Below the pieces are notes generated by a model. That model was not told the origin of the DNA. It did no database searches and worked only from the letters and a program-made list of their open reading frames with translations. Shown here piece by piece: positions 4,302-10,624 of a stretch of 26,633 nt of DNA (its first letter is position 1; every line of letters begins with the position of its first letter). The DNA is taken from positions 1 through 26,633 of the IMG/VR virus record IMGVR_UViG_3300028597_000063. One strand, written 5' to 3'. A program made the translations under genes and the position numbers. Source of the DNA: a virus.

Positions 4302-4323
4302 CGTCTTTGTTCCTTGTGGTCAA

Positions 4324-4442
4324 TTCGCTTATGGGCTCGCTCTGGCCCCACCCTGTGCCCAGGGTTCGCGCCGTTGATAACGCTGGGTCTGACATGCGGC
4401 ACCGTGCCCGGTATAGCCCGCCAGAGCCAGCTCATAAACGAA
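4324..4442. repeat. Imperfect 23-bp inverted repeat just before the first early gene
   Basis: Bases 4324-4346 pair with 4420-4442 with three interruptions; the outer arm (TTCG...CGAA) and the inner arm (GCTCTGGC/GCCAGAGC except for one mismatch) are both strong. The inside, about 73 bases, contains further short complementary segments such as CCCAG/CTGGG. Its place, about 20 bases upstream of the first early gene, is that of the T7 R0.3 RNase III site. Confidence 0.6.
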
Positions 4443-4461
4443 CTGTAGTGGTTGCTTTGCA

Positions 4462-4519
4462 ATGCACACTGGCTAGGCTTTCCATCCTAACTGATCCGTC
4501 GCCGGGATTCAGTGTGCAT
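4462..4519. repeat. Perfect 10-bp inverted repeat in the early leader
   Basis: ATGCACACTG and CAGTGTGCAT enclose 38 bases in which TAGG/CCTA and ATCC/GGAT also pair, giving a small branched structure. A separate stem AACCTA/TAGGTT with a 4-base loop follows at 4524-4539. These are seen directly; a function in the leader RNA is inferred. Confidence 0.55.
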
Positions 4520-4876
4520 CACAAACCTATCACTAGGTTCTGCCCTATTCGGGATGCCGGAACCTTCTGGTCCGGTCAGCTTCTAGCGGGTATCCCCTTT
4601 CGCCACGTTTCAGTGACCGCTAGCACACTTCTGAGCGTGTGAACTCCCCCTACCCTGCAACCCGCCTAGGAGACGACGGCATCGTTGTGTCTGCGGCTCA
4701 TCCGTTTGGACTTGCTCGGGCGCACGCTGTACTAACCCGTGGTTCTTCCGGCAGCCTAAGCCTTACCCGTTCTCCACCATCCGTCTTGTCGCTACTGCTG
4801 GCACCGTACGCTGCGTTTAAAGCGTCGTCACTAGCCGGTAACCGTGGGAGCTGGTTCCCTGTGTTGCTTGGCGGCC

Positions 4877-5500: not shown

Positions 5501-5650
5501 GCGCAATAAATCACTCACAGTATTGATCATTTATTAACCAGAATGAGCACAGATTGCGCAATCCAGAGCATTCTTAGCAGGATTCACTAACAATCAAGGC
5601 ATTCTTAGTGGGTAATTTAAAAGGTGCATTTAATGATAAGATTGAGATGC
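5501..5650. other. AT-rich island with inverted and direct repeats
   Basis: About 150 bases clearly poorer in GC than the rest of the window. It holds an AATAAAT/ATTTATT inverted repeat (5505-5511 and 5529-5535), the palindrome ATTGCGCAAT (5553-5562), and a direct repeat GCATTCTTAG (5568-5577 and 5599-5608, 31 bp apart). It lies just upstream of the early promoters. It could ease DNA melting for replication or serve promoter activation; I cannot tell which. Confidence 0.5.
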
Positions 5651-5689: not shown

Positions 5690-6350
5690 CCGTGAGCCAC
5701 GGTAGCACAGAGCGCACTGCGCAGCACCAGCACAGCAACGCTAGGCGCTAAGCAACACAGAGTGAACCAGAGGCAGCACAGAGGTGGCCAGAGTAATCCA
5801 GAGTGCACCAGAGCATGCTAAGTGAGTCCAGGGTGATCTAGTGACACTCAACAGTACAGGGCAAAAGAAACAGTGCGGAGCAAAAAGAAACAGAGCCACC
5901 GAGCACGCACAGCCACGCACTGGGCACACTGAGCGCGCCAGAGGAGACCAGAGGCACGCTAAGCACAGCGATGAGCACCAGAGACAACCAGAGGTGCAGA
6001 GCAAGCACAGGTTCGCACTGTCACACTAGCGTGCTCCACTGCTCACCCAGCGAGCCAGAGCACACCAGAGCACACCATAGTGCGCCAGAGCTTGACAGGG
6101 TGGCCAGAGCACGCTAAGCTATGCACAGTGGATGAGAGATGCCACCCACCCTAGCGAAGTTTGCACTCCAGCCAGAGGACCGACGGGGGAAACCGGGTGC
6201 GTGTCGGGTCGGGAAGGGCCTCGGATAGATGCAGCAAATTTCGGGTGCACGTAGAACCCGCTAGCCACCCAGTCCACCAGAGAACACCAGGCACGCACGA
6301 GCAGGCCCAGGGCACCAGAGGCACCCAGGCTCAGTTCGTAACTCATGCTA
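5690..6350. repeat. Degenerate 10-bp tandem repeat array, core CCAGAG
   Basis: At least fourteen exact CCAGAG copies occur on the plus strand, none in reverse. They keep a spacing of about 10 bp within blocks: 5788, 5798, 5808; 5938, 5948; 5978, 5988; 6055, 6065, 6085. Degenerate units (CCATAG, GCTAAG, CCAGGG, TCTAGT) fill gaps in the same phase, for example at 5828 and 6075. A stretch at about 6120-6265 is mostly free of the unit. T7 has arrays of a 7-base unit (CCTAAAG) beside its terminal repeats; the setting here, between the last late gene and the early promoters, matches. A few short open frames cross the array, but their composition follows the repeat. Confidence 0.7.
6185..6218 (+). 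other. G-rich tract with G-quadruplex potential
   Basis: Five runs of at least three G (6185-6189, 6195-6197, 6206-6208, 6211-6213, 6216-6218) are separated by 5, 8, 2 and 2 bases on the plus strand. One loop is slightly longer than the usual limit of seven. The tract lies in the repeat-poor part of the decamer region. Confidence 0.4.
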
Positions 6351-8533: not shown

Positions 8534-10348
8534 TTACCTCCGGGTGCGGCGGCGCTGGATGGCTGCGCGTGTGCCTGCGGTTTTGGGTACTTGGGTGTCC
8601 GAGTAGCCCATAGGGTTGGCCATGTGCGTGCGGGCGTCAGCTTCGCGGCGCTTCTGTGCAGCCTTGGTCTCGTCCTGCGCCAGCACGTGCTTGAAGTAGC
8701 AGATGCTCGCGGCCCAGGCCTCGATACGGTCGTCGTGTTGCAGGGATTGACGGTCAGTGGTGATAGCGCTGATCTGGCTGAACAGCGAGTAGCTTGGGCG
8801 CTTGTCTGCGCCATGCTGCTTGCCTGCCTCAGCGTCACCCTCGAACACGCCCTTGTGCAGCACGATACGATGGCGCTGCATGGCAGACACAACCGAGTCG
8901 ATGATGCGCTTCTCTTTCTGACCAGTGCTGTACCGGCCAACGACGCCAACAGACCCGAAGTACGGATCAGGCGGGAATACTTCCATCGTGATAGGGTTGG
9001 TGTACCCCAGCTTGCGCTTCTCGAAGTGTGCGCGCAGGTTGATTTCGAACAGGCCGTGGCCCATGTTCGACTCACACTCTACGACAGTCACACCGTATTC
9101 CTTCACCTTGTCGGCAATCTTGTCGGCGTTCTCGTTGGTCAGACCGCCCTTCCACCCGGTGACGTACAGCGAGTGGATGTATGGGCCGATGGCCGTGGAG
9201 ATACCACAGCCAATCTCATCCGCACCACCACCGGCAGGGTCCAGGCACATTACACGCAATCCCGGCTTCACGAACTCGCAAGGGACCTGTACCGGATGAT
9301 ACATCGTGGCCATAGCGACGGGGAAGTCCCGAGGCAGCTCTACCTTCTGCTGAGGTGCAGCGAGGTACGGCAGCATCTCGGGGATGCTTTCCCAGTCGAA
9401 GTTGGCGACCAGAAGGTCACTCAGCTTCAGCTGTTGGCGAGCTGCATCACTAAGGCTAGTGTCGAGCATGTGCTGGAGGCTGAAGTCTTCCGGGCCTTTG
9501 TCCAGCTCTTTCTCGATGAGGTCGTCTTCGGTATAGCGGTCGGGGTCGGCAGGGGCACCTCGGGTGCCGTCGATTCCGTACCCGGTTTGCAGCTCGGGGT
9601 TTGCCCGGATGCGATCAAGCAGATAAGGTGCAAGCCTGTCGCCATACTTCTCTACCTCGTCAGGCGTTGGGTATCGCCCAGGCCAAATGCGCAGCTGGAA
9701 GCCACGGCCTGGGAGAGAGTTGTAAATCGAGTCCTTGGACTGAGGCGTGCCAAGGTACAAGATATCGCCGTGCGTACAGATCGACGAGAATTCCTTCGAG
9801 AACTGCATGAGCTTCGCACGCTCGGTGCTGGTCATGGAGTTCTTGTTGGTTTCAATGTCGTCCGGGATCAGCAAATCTGCCCGCTTACCGGGCAAGTTCG
9901 CCGTAATCCCGACGCATGCTACAGAGGGCGACTTGTCAATGCCCTTGAGCGCGTAGTGCACATCGAATGCTTCTACCGAGGATCGATCGCCTGCTTGCCG
10001 ATCAGGGCGCAGGTATTCGAGGATTTCCCAAGTTGTGATAAGGCGGATCACCAGAGTGGCAACTTCCGACGCCTGCTTCTCACCACCGGATACAATGAGT
10101 ACCCGGGTCTGAGGACGTTGGATGATTCGCCACACTGCGTACAGGGCTGCGAGGGTGGATTTAGCTTCACCCCGCTGGGCCATGACCATACGCAACCGTG
10201 GTCCGTTCTCCATGTACTCGGAGATGTTCGCTTGCATCTCAGTCAGCGGGAAGCCGAGAAACTTCATGCCGTCCGCTGCGAAGTCCACAAAGTGCAAGTA
10301 GTGGTCCGCCACAACGGTGGCATGCTGAATACGAATCTCGACTTCCAT
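8534..10348 (-). CDS. Large terminase subunit (T7 gp19-like)
   Basis: 604 aa, the motor and nuclease that packages DNA into the prohead. The ATPase half shows a Walker A-like loop (AQRGEAKST, residues 57-65), Walker B (ADLLIPDDIE, 157-166) and a coupling motif (LYLGTPQ, 197-203). The nuclease half shows the RNase H-like acidic residues: LD370PAGGGAD, VVECES with E424, and a C-terminal HDD (539-540). The length is close to T7 gp19 (586 aa). It is adjacent to the small terminase gene (9 bases away) and one base before the holin. GGAG lies upstream of the start. A role at unit genome ends is expected, since T7-like terminases make direct terminal repeats. Confidence 0.95.
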   Translation of the reverse strand: MEVEIRIQHATVVADHYLHFVDFAADGMKFLGFPLTEMQANISEYMENGPRLRMVMAQRGEAKSTLAALYAVWRIIQRPQTRVLIVSGGEKQASEVATLVIRLITTWEILEYLRPDRQAGDRSSVEAFDVHYALKGIDKSPSVACVGITANLPGKRADLLIPDDIETNKNSMTSTERAKLMQFSKEFSSICTHGDILYLGTPQSKDSIYNSLPGRGFQLRIWPGRYPTPDEVEKYGDRLAPYLLDRIRANPELQTGYGIDGTRGAPADPDRYTEDDLIEKELDKGPEDFSLQHMLDTSLSDAARQQLKLSDLLVANFDWESIPEMLPYLAAPQQKVELPRDFPVAMATMYHPVQVPCEFVKPGLRVMCLDPAGGGADEIGCGISTAIGPYIHSLYVTGWKGGLTNENADKIADKVKEYGVTVVECESNMGHGLFEINLRAHFEKRKLGYTNPITMEVFPPDPYFGSVGVVGRYSTGQKEKRIIDSVVSAMQRHRIVLHKGVFEGDAEAGKQHGADKRPSYSLFSQISAITTDRQSLQHDDRIEAWAASICYFKHVLAQDETKAAQKRREADARTHMANPMGYSDTQVPKTAGTRAAIQRRRTRR

Positions 10349-10357
10349 TTAGGTCTC

Positions 10358-10624
10358 CTAGTCGTTCTGCACGAGCTGCATGATGCCAGCCCGCTTGGAG
10401 TCGCGACCCGCAGCCGCGTCCTTGAGACGAGACTGAAGATCACGGAGGTCCTTCTTGTCCGCAGGGTCTGCGGTGATTTCGTTGTCCTTCAGGAACTTTG
10501 CAGCGCCGGACAACAGCGCCGGAGTCACCATGACTTCCTCGTCGAGGCAGGTTTGAATCTCCCCGATGTAGGCCTTGGTGACAAGCCGGTGCAGCGCGCC
10601 AAGCTCGTCCTTGGTCGCGGTCAT
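10358..10624 (-). CDS. Small terminase subunit (T7 gp18-like)
   Basis: 88 aa, the same size as T7 gp18 (89 aa). Nearly all helical and charged, beginning MTATKDELGALHRLVTKAYI, with LDEEVMVTPALLSGAAKFLKDNEI in the middle, a pattern familiar from T7-type small terminases, and a basic tail. These proteins form rings that recognise the concatemer and stimulate the large subunit. Its place directly between tailspike and large terminase gives strong support. AGGAGG lies five bases before the ATG. Confidence 0.85.
   Translation of the reverse strand: MTATKDELGALHRLVTKAYIGEIQTCLDEEVMVTPALLSGAAKFLKDNEITADPADKKDLRDLQSRLKDAAAGRDSKRAGIMQLVQND

Follow-up and report, generated by a model that had tools for sequence, protein, structure and literature searches.

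The DNA analysed here, called the window throughout, is a 26.6-kb virus contig with its genes on the minus strand. The genes run in the order portal, scaffold, capsid, tail tubes, internal virion proteins, tail spike, small terminase (TerS), large terminase (TerL), lysozyme, spanins and three small proteins, and these late genes are followed by a non-coding gap of 2.05 kb (6352-4302) and then by the early genes. Such a phiKMV-like late gene order, together with T7-type TerS and TerL, is characteristic of the Krylovirinae or phiKMV-like phages, and the window is on these grounds assigned to a phiKMV-like phage (Autographiviridae), of which it is a piece. The closest isolates by TerL are the Pseudomonas phages MKPT02, Draal, Bertil, Misse and Strit (74-75% identity), which are Krylovirinae members or relatives. 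The TerS model has three helices and a mean pLDDT of 75 (moderate confidence), and no solved TerS in the PDB was matched, either by sequence or by the fold of this model. The part of this gap that separates the last late gene from the early promoters can be identified from its sequence as the concatemer junction, and it holds the repeat array described below. Searches of IMG/VR with the genes adjoining the array found no relatives, whereas a TerL profile did find them. The features are collected in Table 1.

Table 1. Features of the window; the limits of the repeat blocks are approximate
Feature	Position	Strand	Remarks
Small terminase (T7 gp18 family)	10358..10624	-	PF11123, E 5e-21; phrog_891
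Large terminase (T7 type, RNase-H-like family)	8534..10348	-	PF22530, E 4.5e-26; phrog_17672, E 6e-133
Repeat block A	6265..6350	-	before the predicted left DTR end; CTCTGG-type cores at 6320, 6312 and 6282; lag-10 identity 0.45
Left-terminus island	6176..6255	-	0.48-0.69 identical in nine junctions; DTR predicted to begin at about 6213 (TT/CCCGACCCGACACGC)
Predicted DTR	5896..6213	-	about 318 bp; span between two conserved landmarks; single copy in the assembly
Repeat block B	6040..6120	-	inside the predicted DTR; CCAGAG at 6055, 6065, 6085 and 6104; CCATAG at 6075 in phase
Repeat block C	5920..6000	-	inside the predicted DTR; CCAGAG at 5938, 5948, 5978 and 5988; lag-10 identity 0.45
Right-end element, two copies	5857..5896	-	CTCTGTTTCTTTTTGC at 5895, ACTGTTTCTTTTGCC at 5874; predicted right DTR cut; pause-like
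Repeat block D	5740..5840	-	past the predicted right cut; CCAGAG at 5767, 5788, 5798 and 5808; CACAGAG variants in phase
Early sigma-70-type promoters	5336-5308, 5186-5159, 4905-4877	-	3 found, 0.6 expected

The early side of the gap has several features of its own. Between the array and the promoters lies an AT-rich TTAATAAATGATCAA element (5516-5540, minus strand) that recurs in relatives (ATTTATTAACCAATG) and is possibly a site for a host architectural protein. Two stretches of early-promoter DNA have counterparts in other phages. That at 5020-5192 matches the early promoter region of the LUZ24-like Pseudomonas phage tf, which belongs to a different group, with 80% identity (173 bp), and that at 5181-5264 matches GP100 (Zobellviridae) with 88% identity (84 bp); it seems that promoter modules are common to different phage families. 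The early leader ahead of the first early gene (4302-4780, minus strand) has conserved, hairpin-rich stretches in common with Draal03 (L013, 6250-6490), for example AGGGCAGAAYCTAGTGATAGGTTT, as well as a 26-nt inverted repeat (4446-4535), and may be a structured leader RNA, one without a match in Rfam.

Between 5690 and 6350, the hexamer CCAGAG is found in 15 exact copies (5767-6315), all of them on the plus strand, where shuffled sequence has 1.28 copies on average and at most 5, and CTCTGG is absent from the same strand. This confirms the initial annotation, which had seen more than a dozen exact copies in one orientation. The 10-bp autocorrelation that it had proposed as a check is also present: lag-10 identity over the region is 0.381 against 0.275 in shuffles (z 5.6-6.1), none of 500 shuffles reached this value whether 2-, 3- or 4-mer counts were kept, and the spectral power of the array peaks at 9.92 bp. 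Where cores lie 10-11 bp apart the distance is exactly 10 bp in nine pairs and 11 bp in one. Degenerate units keep step with the exact ones, as had been claimed, since the 24 cores with at most one mismatch fit a single phase throughout, with a best period of 9.96 bp (R 0.67; p 0.0005 when compared to random positions). The description of the array as blocks is only partly correct. There are four of these (A to D), mostly with 10-bp steps, but the stretch at 6260-6120 is not repetitive (one copy, lag-10 identity 0.27) and holds the predicted left DNA terminus, and a few of the intervals between cores are 8 bp. A few exact tandem copies are present. No inverted repeats or iteron-like palindromes were found within the blocks. 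It is worth noting that two other readings of the region were rejected. A protein-coding array was discarded as the open reading frames over it are short and occur on either strand, and no gene is annotated at this place in the relatives; a structured RNA was discarded as there is no Rfam match and the folding is only weakly more stable than in shuffles (z -1.84).

The assembly of the window contains one copy of the junction, and its direct terminal repeat (DTR) is in this case a prediction, placed between two conserved landmarks. The predicted length fits the distance from CCCGAC to the right-end element in the four contigs most similar to the window (295-371 bp in L043, L044, L046 and L047; TerL 75-76%), and annotated DTRs of relatives are 277-478 bp long. 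At the left landmark the minus strand, which is the gene-sense strand, reads TCCCGACCCGACACGCACCCGGTTTCCCCCGT from 6214. This matches the start of the annotated 414-bp DTR of phiKMV, TCCCGACTCCGACACGCCCACCCTTCCCCCGT (start motif TCCCGACTCCGACACGCC), and the island around it also agrees with the DTR start annotated in Axy21 (CCCGACCCC) and with the beginning of the Misse record (CCCGACCC); because of these matches the left DNA terminus is inferred at about 6213. The right landmark is the best-conserved 20 bp of the junction (identity 0.74). It reads CTCTGTT followed by TCTTTTT and matches six of the seven letters of ATCTGTT, the class II pause signal that, with a U-run, occurs at the T7 concatemer junction (PMC11617373). 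Elements related to CTCTGTTTCTTTTTGC are found at the annotated DTR right ends of LKA1, Axy21, phiKMV and LUZ19. With the cut marked by a slash, these and other annotated right ends read ...gcct/TGCCTCTTTTGCC in LKA1, ...ccta/TCTGTCTCTTTTCG in Axy21, ...ctag/CCTTGCCTCTC in phiKMV, ...cta/GCCTTGCCTC in LUZ19, ...gctc/TGCCTTGCTTATTTTGC in KP34, ...ggca/TCTGTATTATCC in JG068 and ...ccct/ATCTGTTACAG in T7. In a close relative such as Misse or MKPT02 the ends of the DNA are predicted at the TT/CCCGACC site and just before CTCTGTCTCTTTTGC. The array, which had been compared to those beside the terminal repeats of T7, both flanks and fills the predicted repeat, and the T-rich, pause-like element marks the predicted right terminus.

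A weight matrix for the right end was built from the window, Misse, Draal03, MKPT02, VAC_51 and SnaP-R1, none of which has an annotated DTR, and compared with DTR coordinates as annotated in the phage records. In LKA1 and Axy21 the annotated right end ranks first of ~83,000 genome positions, in LUZ19 it ranks third, and in phiKMV the first rank goes to a site 18 bp past the right end. The matrix misses the DTR end in LIMElight (rank 66), phiGM22-3 (rank 133) and T7 (rank 172). Among loci fetched from IMG/VR with the TerL profile, 17 have a strong match 1.7-5 kb past TerL. The right-end element thus locates DTR right ends in several genomes, and the features of the junction could allow a simple prediction of genome ends in assembled phiKMV-like contigs, where the information on ends has been lost. 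In the case of JG068 the ends are known from direct Sanger reads (PMC3765740). Read mapping assigned the close relatives Draal01 and Drael01 to headful packaging (PMC11256456), and this is at odds with a fixed DTR unless the assignment is a library artefact. Inside the predicted DTR there is a further, moderately conserved spot at 6016-6035 on the minus strand (identity 0.58). In phiKMV, LUZ19, Axy21, phiGM22-3, Misse, L048, L069 and L102 the DTR contains a leftward promoter of the sigma-70 type (TTGACA-16-TAnAAT or similar), 90-277 bp before the right cut, which is a positional counterpart of the leftward A0 promoter of T7; none was found in the window.

In an alignment of nine close junctions the conserved islands are the left terminus (0.65-0.69) and the right-end element, and the blocks of the array, at 0.11-0.44, belong to its least conserved stretches. 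The core is CTCTGG in the window, CCTGACTG in Misse, MKPT02 and L044, CCTGG in phiKMV and LKA1, and GCTGGGCTATC in LIMElight, so that the repeat unit differs even between relatives with 75% identical TerL. The expectation that similar arrays would be found in related phages therefore holds for their common place and phasing of about 10 bp, but not for the CCAGAG unit, which is absent even from the closest relatives. By these comparisons, the unit changes fast and its position and period of roughly one helical turn are kept.

Simple lag-10 autocorrelation was too strict for the relatives, in which the spacing jitters and the mean period differs, and it was replaced by a spectral test in which the junction is ranked against all other 400-bp windows of its own genome in ten frequency bands of equal width. 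The test included 17 genomes, and the counts omit T7. The junction takes first place in its genome in 10 of the 16 phages in the 9.5-11.5-bp band (median rank 1) and fails to do so in six, compared to first ranks in 0-3 of the 16 in the nine other bands (median ranks 12-50); these counts overstate independence somewhat, as phiKMV/LUZ19, phi-2/phiGM22-3, L043/L044 and L046/L047 are close kin in the sets used. The best junction periods range from 9.9 to 11.3 bp. Averaged over 14 phages, the power in the helical band is highest at the right cut, where it reaches 1.99 (mean) or 2.13 (median) times background, and declines within 300-400 bp of it. The T-richness of the sense strand has its maximum at the right cut too (AT skew -0.46), the strand becomes A-rich over the early promoters, and in most phages it is T-rich and A-poor at the cut. 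The early-promoter stretch is also non-coding, yet its helical-band power is near background, which means that a lack of coding alone does not explain the periodicity. In a separate IMG/VR set, picked by the right-end element alone, the mean ratio is 2.05 in the helical band against 1.04-1.69 in the other bands, with the higher values near the second harmonic. These results support phasing of about 10 bp as a property of the family, and it is no peculiarity of the window. We also considered, and rejected, one bendability motif (CTG/CAG) that all junctions would share; CTG dominates the sense strand in most of them, but not in VAC_51, JG068 and T7.

To our knowledge, it is still unsettled how T7-like terminases recognise the concatemer junction and how the terminal repeat is duplicated. 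We lean, with some reserve, towards a reading in which the array is part of a phiKMV-like concatemer junction and its cores form a multivalent face along one side of the helix. The packaging machinery would dock on this face, or wrap it, around the right cut, beside a phage RNA polymerase paused at the neighbouring right-end element, and concatemers would be cut at the junction and the DTR duplicated. The small terminase would be the first candidate for the protein that binds the array. A more general proposal, which we put forward only tentatively, is that the right cleavage site in Autographiviridae is marked by helical periodicity and strand asymmetry, with no fixed sequence, and is read by shape or wrapping. 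If this is true, the letters of the junction are free to turn over while the rhythm is kept. The periodicity at the right cut and the pause-like element linked to it provide a concrete site to footprint and mutate.

Three other explanations have to be weighed. It is unlikely that the array is a slow zone for transcription, where the cores (CTCTGG/CTCTGT) would act as weak copies of the class II pause on the phage RNA polymerase and helical spacing would be secondary. Pausing does not need a spacing of one turn, the cores of LKA1/phiKMV and LIMElight are less pause-like, and the T7 repeats are unlike the pause, even if TCTG is common to the right-end element and the cores, the T7 junction is among the class II signals (PMC11617373) and the T-rich strand at the cut would agree with such a role. 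Just behind it we place neutral drift of functionless tandem repeats in non-coding DNA where slippage is tolerated. This would account for the rapid change of the unit, and the exact tandem copies do suggest recent slippage; however, drift should give shorter or longer units just as readily, and across subfamilies it is specifically the helical band that is enriched, with the centre at the right cut. Least probable is bent or bendable DNA bound at the first-entering end by a host architectural or injected virion protein, in the service of ejection, early transcription or recombination. One-turn phasing is compatible with bending and the array region adjoins the early promoters, but the peak is at the right cut instead of the promoters, and the opposite genome end has a block of its own, ahead of the left terminus.

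The reading of the array as a docking or wrapping face has partial parallels in known systems. TerS rings of the SF6 type carry neighbouring DNA-binding motifs at a distance of about one DNA turn, and the pac DNA has been proposed to be wrapped (PMC4737164), although this model is disputed (PMC9611059). The pac sites of SPP1/SF6-type phages are, under that model, similar in that DNA thought to be wrappable lies beside the packaging cut; these phages have another terminase family and package by headful. Among phiKMV-like relatives, the junction arrays of Misse, MKPT02, VAC_51, LIMElight, KP34, phiKMV/LUZ19, L046 and L047 have the same position relative to the DTR right end, with periods of 10.2-11.2 bp and cores unlike that of the window, and no description of them was found in the open-licence literature searched. 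In phi-2 (L021, 42297-43144), a different kind of terminal array is annotated at the same junction, namely a 105-bp tandem array with inverted repeats at the right end of that phage.

A close parallel is T7, whose arrays beside the terminal repeat are named SRL and SRR. The unit there is CCTAAAG at about 13.1 bp, compared to CCAGAG/CTCTGG at 9.9-10.0 bp in the window, and the two sequences are unrelated. The comparison with T7 made in the initial annotation holds for position and single orientation and is not supported in the spacing of the T7 repeats, which is neither 7 nor 10 bp; it follows that phasing by one turn is not universal. The pause-like element of the relatives lies at the DTR right end, as ATCTGTT does in T7, with a T-run after it in several (ATCTGTCTCTTTT). 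The copy in the window reads CTCTGTTTCTTTTT, a likeness of sequence, and ATCTGT with a T-run is found in Axy21, VAC_51, SnaP-R1, L049 and L061. In both systems short, degenerate units in one orientation (here 15 copies to 0) are found with the same class of terminase, before, in and after the DTR (here a predicted one, not a measured one) and ahead of the early promoters. Blocks B and C lie inside the predicted DTR and blocks A and D outside it, block A being by position the counterpart of SRR and block D that of SRL. The array is probably a sequence-plastic, helically phased counterpart of SRL and SRR, with a role in concatemer processing or packaging.
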